This document shows, piece after piece, positions 26,886 to 61,266 of a DNA stretch of 64,000 nucleotides. Position 1 is the stretch's first letter. Each line of letters starts with the position of its first letter. A program made the translations under genes and the position numbers. The stretch is from Pseudofulvimonas gallinarii (GTDB lineage: Bacteria; Pseudomonadota; Gammaproteobacteria; Xanthomonadales; UBA2363), in contig NZ_SMAF01000003.1 in assembly GCF_004343305.1 (NCBI RefSeq), forward strand, positions 124,001 through 188,000, given 5' to 3'. A model generated the notes under the pieces. It made no database searches, was not told the origin of the DNA, and saw nothing but the letters and a program-made list of their open reading frames with translations.

Positions 26886-27024
26886 CGAAGGCGCGACACC
26901 CGTCGGCCGGCGCCGGACGGGACCGCCGGGGCCGAGCCGGACTAGAATCCCCTTGTTCGCCGCTGCGGAACCATTCCGGCCCGCCGCTGTCCGACGATTT
27001 TCACGACCCTCCGGAATCCTGCAC

Positions 27025-27747
27025 ATGATGAAGCCCCTTGTCCTGGCCAGCCTGTTCGCGGCCGCCTCTTTCTCCGCCCAGGCCGATGACAAGGTCGTGC
27101 GTGAAGCCATCCAGACCCTGGTGCCCAACGCCAGCATCGACAGCATCGCCGAGTCGGCGCTGCCGGGCTTCTATGAAGTCAGTCTCGGCGGCCAGCTGAT
27201 CTACGTCACCACCGACGGCCGCTACCTGGTCCAGGGCAACGTCTACGACATCGCCAACAAGGTCGACCTGACCGAACAGAAGCGCAACGGTGCCCGCGTC
27301 GCGGCCCTGGCCGAGGTGCCGCGCGACCGCCGCATCGTCTTCGAACCGAAGGAAGTGAAGCACCGCATCACGGTGTTCACCGACATCGACTGCGGTTACT
27401 GCCGTCGCCTGCACCAGGAAATGGCCGAGTACAACGCCCGCGGCATCGCCGTCGAATACCTGTTCTATCCCCGCGCCGGGCTGGGCAGTGAATCCTTCCA
27501 GAAGGCCGTCAACGTCTGGTGCGCACCGGACCGCAACGCCGCGATGACGCGCGCCAAGGCCGGCGAGACGCTGGAAAAGCGCGAGTGCGACAATCCGGTG
27601 TCCGTCGACTTCCAGCTCGGCCAGCAGATCGGCCTGACCGGCACGCCGGCGCTGATCACCGAAGACGGCACGCTGCTGCCGGGCTACATGCCGGCCGACG
27701 CGTTGCTGCAGCGCCTGGACGGCCTGAAGCAGGCCGCCACACAGTAA
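27025..27747 (+). CDS. dsbC: Periplasmic disulfide isomerase DsbC
   Basis: This 240-residue protein has a clean signal peptide (MMKPLVLASLFAAASFSAQA). A small dimerisation domain (about 20-85) precedes a thioredoxin fold with the active site CGYC (residues 123-126), as in E. coli DsbC. The cis-proline loop is visible as LTGTPALI. A second Cys pair (WCAPD / ECDNP) is also conserved. It would reshuffle wrong disulfides in exported proteins. A TAGAAT at 26943-26948 could be a -10 element, and the gene is closed by a strong terminator at 27779. Confidence 0.94.
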   Translation: MMKPLVLASLFAAASFSAQADDKVVREAIQTLVPNASIDSIAESALPGFYEVSLGGQLIYVTTDGRYLVQGNVYDIANKVDLTEQKRNGARVAALAEVPRDRRIVFEPKEVKHRITVFTDIDCGYCRRLHQEMAEYNARGIAVEYLFYPRAGLGSESFQKAVNVWCAPDRNAAMTRAKAGETLEKRECDNPVSVDFQLGQQIGLTGTPALITEDGTLLPGYMPADALLQRLDGLKQAATQ

Positions 27748-27778: not shown

Positions 27779-27815
27779 GAAGAAGGCCCGCTTCGGCGGG
27801 CCTTCTTCTTTTCTG
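27779..27815 (+). terminator. Strong Rho-independent terminator after dsbC
   Basis: A perfect 13-bp stem (GAAGAAGGCCCGC, 27779-27791, with its complement at 27796-27808) closes a TTCG tetraloop and runs into a T-rich tail. This is the clearest intrinsic terminator in the window. Confidence 0.92.
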
Positions 27816-27954: not shown

Positions 27955-29226
27955 ATGGTCACGCCATTTCAACGCCGCCCGACCCCGCTGTCGCTAGCGG
28001 CAGTCCTCGTGCTCGCAGGGCTTGCATCCGTTGCCCAGGCCGGGGTGACCGTCCGCTCCGGCCATGCCGGCCACTGGTTCGTCCCCGAGCGCAGCGGCGA
28101 GGGCTGGGTGCTGGAAATGCTCGATGCCCGGACCGCTTGGCTGTACTGGTTCACCTATGACGAGCAAGGTGGCCAGCGCTGGATGACTGCGACCGGCCAG
28201 GTGGTCGACGGACCGGACGGACAGGCCATCGAATTCCCGCAGCTGGTGGCGACGCGTGGTGCCCGTTTCGGTGCCGGCTTCGATCCTGCAGACGTAATCC
28301 GCGAGGACGTCGGTTCGGCACGGCTGGTCTTCGTTGACTGCGAGCATGGCCGTTTCAGCTATGACGCATTCGGGCAGCAGCAGACCTTCCCGGTTTTGCG
28401 GCTCGCCCGCGTCCTCGGCACGCGCTGCGAGGCGCCGCATGGCTACACCGGGCGCGACGAGGGTGTTTTCAGCGGTACGTCCGGCTCGTTCTACGATCCG
28501 GCACACAACGGCGAAGGTTTCGCCGTGCACTGGACTTCGGCCGACCTGGCCATTCTCACCTGGTACAGCTACGACAGCGAGGGCAACCCGTACTGGATGC
28601 TGGGCACCGGGCAGCGCGATAGTGAAGGAATCATCCGCTTCGATGACCTGCATGCCACCCGCGGCGCTCGATTCGGCGCCGCCTTCGAGGACGACGATGT
28701 CGAGCGCTTCGCCTGGGGTCACGTCGAATTCAACGCCGATTGCCTCGGCGGCAGTGCGGCGTACGAATCGGTCCTGCCCGACTTCGGCAGCGGCGGTTTC
28801 AGTCTCGCCCGCCTCACGGGCCTGTTCGAAACCGCCTGCATGTGGCATCCCACCGTTCGCGCCCTCACCGATCTCCACGACCTGTCCCTGCAGGTCCTGC
28901 CCGCCGCCATCGAGGCTCTTCCGGCGAACTCGTTCCAGGTGCAACGGGTGACGGTCGATGCCGAGGGTGGGCTGTGGGCCTCAACGCCCGTCGACGGCGC
29001 GCAACGCGTCATACATTTGGCCCCGGGCGCCGGATCATGGATGCTGGTCGGAGAGCTCCGGCAGCTACTGAGCCATCGGGTCTGGGTCGCGGATGCCGAC
29101 ATCTTCGCAACGGGCTCGCTGGACGGCACCCATCTACCGTTGCCAATGCGCAGGCGCGCAGGCGCGCAGGCGCGTGGACGCCAGCCGCCGCCGGTATTCC
29201 GCCGAATTCAGTCCTTACCGGCGTAG
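27955..29226 (+). CDS. Exported two-repeat-domain protein, N-terminal part (frameshifted gene)
   Basis: This 423-residue open frame starts at ATG 27955 after a GGAGACTGT ribosome-binding site. A signal peptide (ending near LASVAQAG) is followed by two copies of a domain of about 130 residues (starts GHWFVPERSGEGWVLE and GSFYDPAHNGEGFAVHW). Each has Trp/Tyr-rich strands (WLYWFTYDEQGGQRW), a RGARFGA segment and a closing Cys. Thereafter it tracks the paralogue at 30262 until about residue 400, then ends in an unrelated tail GRQPPPVFRRIQSLPA. The matching C-terminal part continues in another frame from 29175. The switch falls at the tandem repeat GCGCAGGC x3 (29148-29171). Function is unknown; it is exported and a possible T2SS substrate. 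Confidence 0.75.
   Translation: MVTPFQRRPTPLSLAAVLVLAGLASVAQAGVTVRSGHAGHWFVPERSGEGWVLEMLDARTAWLYWFTYDEQGGQRWMTATGQVVDGPDGQAIEFPQLVATRGARFGAGFDPADVIREDVGSARLVFVDCEHGRFSYDAFGQQQTFPVLRLARVLGTRCEAPHGYTGRDEGVFSGTSGSFYDPAHNGEGFAVHWTSADLAILTWYSYDSEGNPYWMLGTGQRDSEGIIRFDDLHATRGARFGAAFEDDDVERFAWGHVEFNADCLGGSAAYESVLPDFGSGGFSLARLTGLFETACMWHPTVRALTDLHDLSLQVLPAAIEALPANSFQVQRVTVDAEGGLWASTPVDGAQRVIHLAPGAGSWMLVGELRQLLSHRVWVADADIFATGSLDGTHLPLPMRRRAGAQARGRQPPPVFRRIQSLPA
29148..29174. repeat. 8-bp tandem repeat GCGCAGGC, three copies
   Basis: Three perfect copies lie at 29148-29155, 29156-29163 and 29164-29171, plus a partial GCG. Because 8 is not a multiple of 3, gain or loss of one unit changes the reading frame. 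Loss of one copy (or gain of two) joins the upstream and downstream coding segments into one frame. Confidence 0.9.
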
Positions 29227-29924
29227 GTCCCGATGGGCGGTTGCTCGGCGCAACCGCGGGCGCGACCGGCGTGGCAGCCTGGCAATACAAAGGGGCGCGC
29301 GGCTTGCTGAAGCTGCCGGCTCCCGATGACAGCGCGGGAACAGGCGAGCTGTTGCCGCGCTTCGCCAGCACGGATGGTGGCCTGGTGATCGGCAGCCATG
29401 CCGACATCGGTGTCCTCGAACCACGGGAAACCCGCGTATGGCGCGGGCCTTCGGCGCCTCACCTCGTCGCCGGCGGCGCGGGCCACGCGCTGGAGGGAGC
29501 GGCTGCCGCAGGCCGCGACGGACGCGTCGTGTTCGGGGCCGGCACCAGTGCGGGCCGGCGGCCGTGGTACTGGCTTGCTGATCACGACCACGCCGCCTTC
29601 ATCGATGGCGCGCCGGCGGGCACGCGCTTCCGGATCGGCGGAGCCAGTGCTGACGGCAACCTGCTCGCCGGCTCGCTGCAGAAACCCGCGGCAGGATCGG
29701 GCGCGGAATCGTGGGAAACCTTCGTGTGGACTCCGTTCACCGGGCTGGTCGAGCTGCGAGCGCCCATCAACGGGTTGGAACCGGAGGTGGCGGCGTGGCA
29801 GGACCTCGCCGTACTCGGAGTCAGCGCCGACGGTCGGCGCGTGGTCATCGGCGATCATCCGGATTCGGTGAACGGCGGGGCCGGCCGTCTGGCGCTGCTG
29901 CGGTTGACGCCACGGAACTGGTGA
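29175..29924 (+). pseudogene. C-terminal part of the exported repeat-domain protein, out of frame
   Basis: From TGG 29175 the frame reads WTPAAAGIPPNSVLTGVGPD and runs for about 250 residues to a stop at 29924. It aligns with the C-terminal half of the protein at 30262: WTPAAAG... with WRPLDMS..., FVWTPFTGLVELRAP with YVWTPLTGLVSIGDI, and RLALLRLTPRNW with RLALLVLSPRHW. It has no start codon of its own with a ribosome-binding site. Either the gene is inactivated, or this is one phase of a switchable gene. Removing one 8-bp unit would give a continuous 653-residue protein, close to the 687 residues of its paralogue. Confidence 0.75.
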
Positions 29925-30261: not shown

Positions 30262-32325
30262 ATGTCTGCCAGTCACGTTCCGATGCCACGACGCCTGCGC
30301 AATGCCTTGGTGTCGGGCCTGCTGCTCTGCGCCGCGCTGGCGCGGGCCGATGCCGGCATGTCGATCCGCTCGGGCCATGCCGGGCACTGGTTCGCGGCGG
30401 ATCGCAGCGGTGAAGGCTGGGTGCTGGAACTGCGCGATGCGGGCAATGCCTGGATGTACTGGTTCACCTATGACGAGACCGGCGGGCAGCGTTGGCTGAC
30501 GGCGGCAGGGCAGGTGGTGGACGACGGTGAAGGCGGCCAGCGCATCGAGTTTCCGCAGCTGGTCGTGACGCATGGCGCCCGCTTCGGTGCCGCGTTCGAT
30601 CCGGAGGATGTGGTCCGCGAGGCGGTCGGTTCGGCCAGCCTGCGCTTCGATGGCTGCGACAGCGGCGAGTTCAGCTACAACGCCTTCAACCAGAGCCAGA
30701 CCTTCGCCGTCCAGCGCCTGGCGCGGGTCATGGGCACGCGCTGCGAGACGCCGCACGGCGTTGCCGGTCGCGAGGCCGCGGCCTTCGCCGGCGAAAGCGG
30801 CTCCTGGTTCGATCCGGCGCACAACGGCGAAGGCTACGCGCTGCACTGGTCGACGCCGGAGCAGGCGATCGTCACCTGGTACAGCTACGACGACCAGGGC
30901 CGGCAGTACTGGATGCTCGGCACCGGCCATCGCGATGGCGACGGGCGGATTCTTTTCAGCGATGTGCATGCGACACGAGGCGCGCGATTCGGCACGGCCT
31001 TCGATCCGGCCCATGTCGAGCGCTTCGCCTGGGGTGAACTGACCTTCCAGCTTCAGTGCGGCAGCGGTGCGGTGCGTTACGAATCGGTGCTGCCGGCGTT
31101 CGGCGAAGGTATCCTGGACCTGCAGCGCCTGACCTCGCTGCACGAAGTCGGCTGCCCCTGGCAGCGGCCCACCCTGGCCGATCTCTACGACATTGATGTC
31201 CAGGCGCTGCCAACGACCATTGACGGGGCGTCAGGCGAGCGGGTTTACGCTTTCGATGCGCTGGTCGATGGCCATGGCACCCTGTGGACGGATTCCTCCA
31301 GTATCGGTTTCGGGCTGCCGCTCAGGCTCGAAGCGGGCGAGCCGCACTGGCGGACGGCGGGCGAGCTGCAAATGGAAAGCCTGCATTTCAACCGGTTGAT
31401 GCTGGCCGAGGATGACACCGTCTATGGCAGCGGCAGGCTGCCGGGCGATGCTGACAGCCTGCTGCCGGTGCACTTCGTGGACAACGCGTGGCGGCCGCTG
31501 GACATGTCCCTGCCTGACGGGGCGTACATGACGGGAATCAGCGCTTCGGGTGCGCACCGCGTGGGGATGGTGTCCACGGCGGGCGCGCTTCGACAGCCCT
31601 GGCAATGGGCTGCCGACACCGGTCTGGACTGGCTGCGTGGGTCCGACGCCGGCGACCCGTCCACGCCACCGCTGCTGGTGCCGTTGTGGACCAATGAAGT
31701 CGGGTCTCTTGTCGTGGGAACAGTCGGCGGCCTGCCTCCAACCGCTCCAATTGATGCTTACCGGACATTTTTCTGGCGCGATGACGATACGCCGCGAATG
31801 CTGACCGACGACGACTGGTGGCTGTTGGCGCCACGAGCCTGTGCGCGGGACTGCGGGCTCGTGTTCGGTTCAGCGGCGGGGCGGGGGGATCCGGAGTCGC
31901 CTGCGGGGGGCGAGCTGCGCAGGGAACCCTGGGTGTGGGATTCGGCGTCGGGGGAAACGCGGTATCTGGGCCGGCTGGGCCCGGTCGAACATCCGCCTGC
32001 GTTCCGCATTGCGGCCGTCGCCACTGACGGCAGCGTTGTCGCCGGCAGCTATGGCAGTTTTGCGACCTTCTCCGGCGACGGAGGCGGCCCCGCCTCAGAC
32101 AGACGTACGCTGGACGGCTATGTCTGGACACCGTTGACGGGACTCGTGTCGATCGGGGACATCCTCGATCCTGCCGGTGCCGCGCCGTCGCAATGGGAAG
32201 TGCTGGATGTGGCAGGCATGTCGCGGGACGGGCTGCGCCTGGTGTTGACGAACGGCCGCGGCGCCGGACCCGATTTTCCGCGTCGGCTGGCGCTTCTGGT
32301 GCTGTCCCCGCGCCATTGGCTCTGA
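30262..32325 (+). CDS. Exported two-repeat-domain protein (intact paralogue)
   Basis: This 687-residue protein starts at ATG 30262 behind AAGGAGGAAAC. A signal peptide (NALVSGLLLCAALARADAG) is followed by two repeat domains (starts GHWFAADRSGEGWVLEL and GSWFDPAHNGEGYALHW). Each ends in a WG...F.....C element and a RLxR/RLTS motif with a conserved Cys. The C-terminal 370 residues contain weak repeats that look like beta-rich blades, with pairs such as GISASGAHRVGMVST and AVATDGSVVAGSYG. This suggests a propeller-like fold, but I did not establish it. It lies 337 bp after the frameshifted paralogue, so the pair looks like a tandem duplication. No enzymatic motif was recognised. It could be a surface or secreted binding protein. 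Confidence 0.8.
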   Translation: MSASHVPMPRRLRNALVSGLLLCAALARADAGMSIRSGHAGHWFAADRSGEGWVLELRDAGNAWMYWFTYDETGGQRWLTAAGQVVDDGEGGQRIEFPQLVVTHGARFGAAFDPEDVVREAVGSASLRFDGCDSGEFSYNAFNQSQTFAVQRLARVMGTRCETPHGVAGREAAAFAGESGSWFDPAHNGEGYALHWSTPEQAIVTWYSYDDQGRQYWMLGTGHRDGDGRILFSDVHATRGARFGTAFDPAHVERFAWGELTFQLQCGSGAVRYESVLPAFGEGILDLQRLTSLHEVGCPWQRPTLADLYDIDVQALPTTIDGASGERVYAFDALVDGHGTLWTDSSSIGFGLPLRLEAGEPHWRTAGELQMESLHFNRLMLAEDDTVYGSGRLPGDADSLLPVHFVDNAWRPLDMSLPDGAYMTGISASGAHRVGMVSTAGALRQPWQWAADTGLDWLRGSDAGDPSTPPLLVPLWTNEVGSLVVGTVGGLPPTAPIDAYRTFFWRDDDTPRMLTDDDWWLLAPRACARDCGLVFGSAAGRGDPESPAGGELRREPWVWDSASGETRYLGRLGPVEHPPAFRIAAVATDGSVVAGSYGSFATFSGDGGGPASDRRTLDGYVWTPLTGLVSIGDILDPAGAAPSQWEVLDVAGMSRDGLRLVLTNGRGAGPDFPRRLALLVLSPRHWL

Positions 32326-32424: not shown

Positions 32425-35400
32425 ATGATCGTCCTGCACGGCGCCGAAGCGCTTTCCCCGTTCCGCCTCGAGCGCCTGAACCTGGCGCTCGAACAGGCCG
32501 GCCTCCTCGTGCGTGTCGCCGGGACGTACTGGCGCTACTACGTCGATCTTGAAACCCAGGAGGATGCCGGGCCGCTGGCGCGCATCGGGCGGATCGTCGA
32601 AGGCCGCCCGGTGCAGGCCGATGACGACCAGGCCGGCGATGTCCATGTGGTGCCGCGGCTGGGCACCATTTCGCCCTGGTCATCGAAGGCGACGGACATC
32701 CTGCGTGGCTGCGGCCTGCCGGTGCGGCGCATCGAGCGCGGCCTGTGCCTGCGCCTGCGCGGCGTCGTCGGAACGCTGCCCGCGGCGGCGCCGCCGATCC
32801 TGCACGACCCGATGACGCAGACGCTGCTGGTGCAGGCGCCCACCGCGGCGGAGCTGTTCGCCAGCGAGGTGCCGCGGCCACTGGTCTCGATCGCGCTGGC
32901 CGACCTGGCGACCGCGAACCGGACACTGGGCCTGGCCTTGAGCGCGGACGAGATCGACTACCTGCGCGACCGCTACGCCGAACTGGGGCGCGATCCGTCG
33001 GATGCCGAACTGATGATGTTCGCGCAGGCCAACTCCGAACACTGCCGCCACAAGGTTTTCAACGCGACATGGACGCTGGACGGCGAACCGCAGTCGCAGT
33101 CGCTGTTCGGCATGATCCGCAACACGCACGCGGTGACGCCGGATGGCACGCTGTCGGCGTACAGCGACAACGCCGCCGTCATCGAAGGCCATGTCGCCGC
33201 GCGCCTGCGCGTTGATCCGGACTCCGGCGAGTTCGTGCGCCAGCGCGAGGCGGCGCCCTACGCGATCAAGGTCGAGACGCACAACCATCCCACCGCGATC
33301 GCCCCACATCCGGGTGCCGCCACCGGCGCCGGCGGCGAGATCCGCGATGAGGGCGCGGTCGGTCGTGGCGGCAAGCCGAAGGCCGGGCTGGTCGGTTTCT
33401 CGGTGTCACACCTGCGCATTCCCGGGCAGCCGGAACCCTGGGAGCAGGCGCGTCCGACGCCGCCGGGTTACGCCAGCGCCTTCGAGATCATGCGCGACGG
33501 CCCGATCGGCGCCGCCGCCTACAACAACGAATTCGGCCGGCCCTGCCTGGCCGGCTATTTCCGCAGTTTCGAGCAGGCGGACAGCGGCACGCTGGTGCGC
33601 GGCTACGACAAGCCGATCATGATCGCCGGCGGGCTCGGTGCCGTGCGTCCCGGCCATGTCGCCAAGCGGCGCGTGCGACCCGGCGACGCCGTGATCGTGC
33701 TGGGTGGCCCGGCCATGCTGATCGGCCTGGGCGGTGGCGCCGCCTCGTCGAAGGCGGCCGGCGAAAGCGCCGAACTCGATTTCGCGTCGGTGCAGCGCGA
33801 CAACCCGGAAATGCAGCGCCGCTGCCAGGAAGTCATCGACGCCTGCATGGCACTGGGTGATGACAATCCCATCGTCGCCATCCACGACGTCGGTGCCGGC
33901 GGTCTCAGCAACGCCGTGCCGGAGCTGCTGCACGACGCCGGCGTCGGTGGCCGCCTGGACCTGGCGGCCGTGCCCTGCGCCGATCCCGCGCTCAGCCCCA
34001 TGGAGCGCTGGTGCAATGAGTCGCAGGAACGCTACGTACTGGCCGTGGCACCCGCCGACCTCGAACGCTTCCAGGCACTGTGCCGTCGCGAGCGCGCGCC
34101 CTTTGCGGTGCTCGGCGAGGCCACCGCCGAGGAACACCTGCTGCTGCGGGATGACGTCGCCGGTGTGGTGATCGACCTGCCGATGCAGGTGCTGTTCGGC
34201 AAGCCGCCGAAGATGCATCGCGACAGCCGGCACGGGGCGGCGGCCAGGGGATCGGCCGATCTGGCCGGCATCGACCTTGCCGAGGCGCTGCCGCGCGTGC
34301 TGTCGCTGCCGACCGTCGGCCACAAGGGTTTCCTCGTCACCATCGGCGACCGTACTGTCGGCGGGCTGTGCGCCCGTGACCAGATGGTCGGTCCCTGGCA
34401 GGTCCCGGTGGCCGACTGTGCCGCCACGCTGGCCGATTTCGACGGCCATGCCGGCGAAGCCATGGCGATGGGCGAGCGCACGCCGCTGGCGCTGATCGAC
34501 GCCGCAGCGAGCGCGCGCATGGCGGTCGGCGAAGCACTGACCAACCTGATGGCGGCACCGGTGGTCCGCCTGCAGGACGTCAAGCTGTCGGCCAACTGGA
34601 TGGCGGCGGTGTCGCATCCGGGCGAGGACGCCGCGCTGTACGACGCCGTGCGCGCGGTCGGCATGGAACTGTGCCCGGCGCTGGGCCTGTCCATTCCCGT
34701 CGGCAAGGATTCGATGTCGATGCAGGTGCGGCACGGCGATGCCGCGACGGTGTCGCCGGTGTCACTGGTCGTGTCCGCATTCGCCCGCATCGGCGACGTC
34801 CGCGAGGTGTGGACGCCGCTGCTGTCGGTCGATGCGCCCAGCGACCTGTGGCACATCGACCTGTCGGCCGGTCGCGCCCGCCTGGGCGGCTCCTGCCTGC
34901 TGCAGGCCTGGGACCGCCGTGGTGGCGAGCCGCCGGATCTGGATGAACCCGAGCGCATGCGCCGCCTGTTCGCCCTGCTCGCGCAGGCGCGCAGCCGTGG
35001 CCTGGTGCGTGCCTACCACGATGTCTCCGACGGTGGCCTGCTGGTGGCGCTGGCGGAAATGGCCTTCGCCAGCCATTGCGGACTCGACATCGACCTTTCG
35101 CATGCCGGCGCGAACAGCCTGGCGGCCGCCTTCGCCGAAGAGCTGGGCGTTGTCGTGCAGGTACGGCGCCAGGATCGTTCCGCATTCGAGCGACTGCTCG
35201 GCGAGCATTCGCTGTTCGATCTGGCGCGGCCGGTGGCGACGCCGATCGCCGAGCCGGTGCTGCGCCTGTCCGCTGGCGACCGCGTCGAGCAGTGGAGCTG
35301 GACCTCGCTGATGCAGGCCTGGACGCGCACGACGCACGCCATGCAGCGACTGCGCGACGAGCCCCGCTGCGCCGACGAGGAACAACTGGCGCGGTGTGAC

Positions 35401-36246
35401 CTCACCGAGCCCGGCATCCAGCCGCTGCTGACCTTCGATCCCGACGAGGACATCGCGGCGCCGTACATCGCCCGTGGCGTCCGGCCGATGGTCGCGATCC
35501 TGCGCGAGCAGGGCGTCAACGGCCAGGTGGAAATGGCGGCGGCGTTCGAGCGTGCCGGCTTCAGGCCGATCGACGTGCACATGAGCGACCTTGCCGAAGG
35601 ACGGCGCGATCTGTCCGCTTTCGCCGGACTGGCCGCCTGTGGCGGTTTCTCCTACGGCGACGTGCTCGGTGCCGGTCGCGGCTGGGCGACGGCGATCCTC
35701 GAGAACCCGGCGCTGCACGACATGTTCGCGGCGTTCTTCGCCAGTCGCGACCGTTTCGCGCTGGGTGTCTGCAACGGCTGCCAGATGCTGTCGCAGTTGC
35801 GCTCGATCATTCCCGGCAGCCGCCACTGGCCGGCGTTCCTGCGCAACCGCTCCGAACAGTACGAGGCACGCCTGGCGCAGGTCGAAGTCGCGGAGTCGGC
35901 TTCATGGCTGTTCCACGGCATGGCCGGCAGCCGCCTGCCGGTGGTCGTCGCCCACGGCGAAGGCCGGGCCGATTTCAAGGCCACGGGGGCCAATGCAGCG
36001 CAGGCGCAGGTCTGCCTGCGCTACGTCGATGGCCATGGCGCGGTGGCTTCGGCCTATCCGGCCAATCCGAACGGATCGCCAGCCGGCATCACCGGCCTGT
36101 GCAACGAGGACGGCCGCGTGACGATACTGATGCCGCACCCGGAGCGCGTGTTCCGCAGCGCCCAGATGAGCTGGGCGCCGGCCAGCTGGGGCGAGGCGTC
36201 GCCGTGGCTGCGCCTGTTCCGCAATGCCCGCAAGGCGGTGGGCTGA
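32425..36246 (+). CDS. purL: Phosphoribosylformylglycinamidine synthase (large, single-chain PurL)
   Basis: This 1273-residue enzyme catalyses step four of purine synthesis, converting FGAR to FGAM with ammonia from glutamine. The N-terminal domain starts [19 protein letters not shown]. The ATP-binding/AIRS-like halves follow ([52 protein letters not shown]). A C-terminal class I glutaminase has the nucleophile Cys in GVCNGCQM (about residue 1115) and the His/Glu pair in MPHPERVFR. Its length is close to E. coli PurL. A palindromic hairpin (GAGGCCGGC, 32364-32385) and TATCCT (32389-32394) lie upstream and may mark the promoter region. Its stop overlaps the next ATG by one base. Confidence 0.96.
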
Positions 36247-61208: not shown

Positions 61209-61238
61209 GAAAAGAACCCGTAAAGCGGGACTCTCCCC

Positions 61239-61266
61239 GAGTCCCGAGTCCCGAGTCCCGGGTCCC
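61239..61266. repeat. 7-bp tandem repeat (GTCCCGA)
   Basis: About three copies of GTCCCGA plus a GTCCCGG variant lie between the REP cluster and the 3' end of ettA. It is non-coding, and too short and regular to be anything else that I recognise. Confidence 0.6.

Follow-up and report, generated by a model that had tools for sequence, protein, structure and literature searches.

Is a gene whose reading frame breaks at a tandem octanucleotide repeat an on/off switch of an exported protein, or is it a copy that has simply been lost? The question is raised by a locus in the draft genome of Pseudofulvimonas gallinarii, of which a stretch of 64,000 nucleotides (the window) was analysed. A forward-strand open frame of 423 aa (27955..29226; ATG at 27955, stop at 29224-29226) encodes a signal peptide and two beta-rich repeats of ~135 aa each. 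It is followed, in a different frame of the same strand, by the C-terminal part of the same ancestral gene (29172..29924), which corresponds to most of a predicted beta-propeller. At the frame break stands a forward-strand tandem array of 3.4 copies, namely three GCGCAGGC units plus GCG (29148..29174). The preliminary description had reported three perfect units at 29148-29171, and these are present, continuing as GCG to 29174. It had interpreted them as a slipped-strand switch and had offered an inactivating mutation as an alternative. The alternative has become the best reading: the split gene is probably (roughly 0.68) a young pseudogene, i.e., an ordinary, recent inactivation of a redundant copy by slippage duplication.

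The position of the break cannot be read from the open frames alone, because the N-terminal frame and the C-terminal one (open from ~28647 to the stop at 29922-29924) share an overlap of ~580 bp in which both are stop-free. An intact paralogue of 687 aa with the same architecture lies ~340 bp downstream on the forward strand (30262..32325). The N-terminal part aligns with it at 56% identity over 367 aa (E 2e-135), as far as codon 391, which ends at ~29127. The C-terminal part aligns at 29% identity over 286 aa (E 6e-19), starting at the AW codons at 29172, directly after the array. Both parts do match the neighbour, as had been claimed, but for the C-terminal part the similarity is far lower than for the N-terminal part. 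Protein homology hence places the break at the array, which makes up 24 of the ~45 bp between the last aligned N-terminal and the first aligned C-terminal residue, and it is in the 29155 bin that the codon-position G+C passes from one frame to the other. On these two lines of evidence the earlier account of two parts in different frames, broken at the array, is borne out. Its frame arithmetic was likewise right, since 8 bp is not a multiple of three and one GCGCAGGC unit fewer, or two more, keeps the frame. The last ~25 residues of the 423-aa frame are an out-of-frame translation beyond the array. The C-terminal part runs for 750 bp with no other stop or indel, which is consistent with a recent event.

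The length of the array before the frame was lost can be deduced from its homologues. In the two-unit form, the M-x5-AW spacing equals the V-x5-AW spacing (V-HFVDN-AW) of the adjacent paralogue, and the congener copies have the same spacing to the conserved Trp (V-RWSGD-AW and variants). Hence, judged by residue spacing, the ancestral array had two units, and the third was added later as a derived 8-bp duplication. None of the eight homologues from three genomes carries a tandem array at the homologous site, the best partial one matching at 5-8 bases, as against 19 in the split gene. Across the assembly the three-unit string is present a single time, and the array together with its left flank found no match among viral contigs. 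Chance composition is ruled out as its origin, as an equally strong array appeared in 0 of 60 windows simulated with an order-5 Markov model. The background of such repeats was taken from 464 kb of the genome, comprising the window and 20 stretches of 20 kb (400 kb). It holds 15 arrays of at least two 8-bp units, and among these only the GCGCAGGC array reaches three. A two-unit precursor is therefore an everyday sequence, from which the observed state is one slippage step away.

The consequences for the protein can be estimated from a predicted structure. Searches with the domains of the family gave no significant match in Pfam and NCBIfam or by sequence in the PDB, and no Pfam model matches the paired N-terminal repeat. 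The predicted model of the neighbour (30262-32325; mean pLDDT 70.6, pTM 0.60) comprises two N-terminal repeats rich in beta structure and, at the C-terminus, a beta-propeller (residues 304-686). The propeller was recognized by fold comparison, in which this region matched many propellers with Z of ~17-21 and rmsd of ~4 over ~280-305 aligned residues. Its length and the seven-bladed proteins among the matches suggest seven blades. Mapped onto the neighbour, the break falls near residue 403, in a predicted beta-hairpin early in the propeller, so the truncated 423-aa protein would keep about two of seven predicted blades and lose about five. The split gene begins with a typical signal peptide, from which the proteins of this family are presumably exported. 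In relatives, the paired N-terminal repeat also occurs as if it were the C-terminal module of other exported proteins, with open frames seen ending just after the pair (L010-L031).

The surroundings of the split gene point to a family in flux. Upstream, on the forward strand, lies what we take to be a DsbC-like thiol:disulfide interchange gene (27022..27747), which both congeners share as a syntenic marker; it is followed at 27779-27808 by a strong terminator-like hairpin. The promoter scan found no promoter-like site. The downstream marker, also on the forward strand, is an intact frame of 1273 aa (32425..36246), presumably phosphoribosylformylglycinamidine synthase (purL). Between dsbC and purL, one congener (G002) has a single intact copy beside dsbC, the other (G001) has four intact tandem copies, and the present genome has one broken and one intact copy. 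Judged by these copy numbers, the family grows and shrinks at this locus, and it is redundant and amplified by lineage. The disruption of the frame at this locus is confined to the host lineage, both congeners having intact copies there. A scan of contigs from further genomes yielded a single weak relative, in a MAG labelled Lysobacteraceae.

Elsewhere in the host genome the family shows further damage. Including the split gene and its neighbour, there are six close paralogues, of which three are intact (the neighbour and the copies on contigs 44 and 47) and three are broken (the split gene and the copies C2 and C13). The C2 paralogue has at least two frame breaks, none at repeats, and C13 has a small indel in a GC run together with a truncation beside a transposase-like gene. 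Broken copies thus amount to 3/6 in the host genome versus 0/8 same-architecture hits in the two congeners. From these small numbers, broken members are a feature of the host genome, and most are unlinked to repeats. The copy on contig 47 is followed by a remnant of another C-terminal half. Contigs 44 and 47 (L041, L043) are short, bear one intact family member each and share an end sequence, which suggests that a repeated element broke the assembly beside these genes.

The events leading to the young pseudogene could be pictured as follows. A short two-unit GCGCAGGC repeat would have arisen by chance in an exported-protein gene, one extra unit would have been gained, probably by replication slippage, and the reading frame would thereby have been lost. 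Slipped-strand mispairing is the likely origin because the frameshift is real and located at a tandem repeat. The copy, reduced to its 423-aa product, is most likely inactive, because only about two of the seven blades are left, and redundancy in the family, which has the intact copy next door and others further away, would make the loss tolerable. Slippage could in principle also remove the unit again at some low rate. The frame is disrupted relative to intact homologues and a large part of the protein is lost, as in pseudogenes generally; further disabling mutations, usual in old pseudogenes, are not required of a young one. The ordinary frameshift pseudogenes in the pseudogene and singleton classes of GeneTack (PMC3711429) are similar in having a break in one lineage with intact homologues, a redundant neighbour and further damaged members of the family within that genome. 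The split gene differs from them in that its break coincides with a whole-unit tandem duplication and that it has so far a single disabling change. Indeed, the undamaged 750 bp and a break of exactly one repeat unit would also be expected of a switch, and the counts of broken paralogues are small; both aspects weigh against an ordinary inactivation. As an ordinary frameshift, the locus would illustrate the turnover, by tandem gain and decay, of a lineage-expanded exported protein family.

The alternative that survives best is the phase-variable switch itself, in which units would be gained and lost reversibly by slipped-strand mispairing, the gene being on with 2 or 5 units and off with 3 or 4. 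It accounts well for an 8-bp unit that lies within the frame of an exported-protein gene and sets its reading by unit number, with an otherwise intact downstream frame and a two-unit form that restores the homologue-like one. The array is also far beyond chance composition. Three units is the lowest count taken as an octanucleotide simple sequence repeat (SSR) in a survey of Haemophilus influenzae, a deliberately permissive cut-off (PMC2651432), but it falls below the minimum of five used for longer units in PhasomeIt (PMC6321876). The SSR genes of H. influenzae, with hepta- and octanucleotide arrays near hmw and at other loci, resemble the split gene in three respects: a tandem unit that does not divide into whole codons, expression that could depend on how many units there are, and an exported product (PMC2651432). 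The hmw octanucleotide arrays, however, have 12-15 units and lie upstream (PMC2651432), whereas here three units lie inside the gene, in an array absent in relatives and known from the sequence of one genome. Retention of the array at the same site, which a maintained switch should show, is lacking across the eight homologues. Moreover, the 464-kb sample contains no further 7- or 8-mer array of at least three units within coding sequence, and a frame break that falls outside any cluster of homologous frame breaks is mostly put down to indel mutation or sequencing error (PMC3711429). No sign of selection maintaining the array as a switch was seen.

Of the slipped-strand switch first proposed, then, a real frameshift at a tandem repeat and slippage as its likely origin have held; the working, reversible switch is left unsupported by the three units, the eight homologues with no array, the paralogues broken away from such repeats, and the decay of other copies beside a redundant intact neighbour. 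On balance the switch is unlikely. A more specific version, in which the GC-rich array would turn one amplified propeller-family copy on and off at a low rate, in alternation with its constant neighbour, in a xanthomonad-like bacterium, is slightly more doubtful still. Were switching true, it would be a rare case of GC-rich octanucleotide phase variation in a poorly studied group; the locus is equally a warning that a three-unit repeat at a frame break is by itself no evidence for a switch.

A sequencing or assembly error, the true chromosome having two units and an intact gene, is improbable. The assembly is a draft of 57 contigs, the repeat is G+C-rich, and two units would be the conserved state. 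Yet the surplus is a whole 8-bp unit rather than the usual homopolymer error, and ordinary short reads are longer than the 27-bp array. Long genes nearby in the window are intact, e.g., the 1273-aa purL frame, and a search for a second allele of the locus elsewhere in the assembly found none.

Still more improbable is that the truncated 423-aa protein is a functional short form consisting of the two N-terminal repeats, its array fixed by selection or drift. The signal peptide and both repeats are intact, and in relatives the repeat pair does occur in other contexts with frames ending just after it. The truncated product, though, retains ~100 residues of incomplete propeller and the out-of-frame tail, unlike a clean domain boundary, and no relative examined with the same architecture is shortened likewise. 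Programmed frameshifting was rejected, as the sole X XXY YYZ heptamer in the overlap, CCCGGGC at 29022, lies far from the homology break and is of a G+C type at which slipping is not expected.

Apart from the GCGCAGGC array, all strong non-triplet arrays in the sample are intergenic. On contig 5 there is an apparently intergenic array of a 14-bp unit (L061:8462-8557), composed of GACTTCCGATCCGG and a variant and containing GGGACTT, between what are presumably a MoaB-like gene and a HAD-phosphatase-like gene. Within the window, positions 61236-61260 hold an intergenic 7-bp array, CCCGAGT x3.6. The complementary sequence, (GGGACTC)n, conforms to (GGGANTN)n, a heterogeneous heptamer that is overrepresented in intergenic regions of Xanthomonas and capable of quadruplex formation (PMC4692102).
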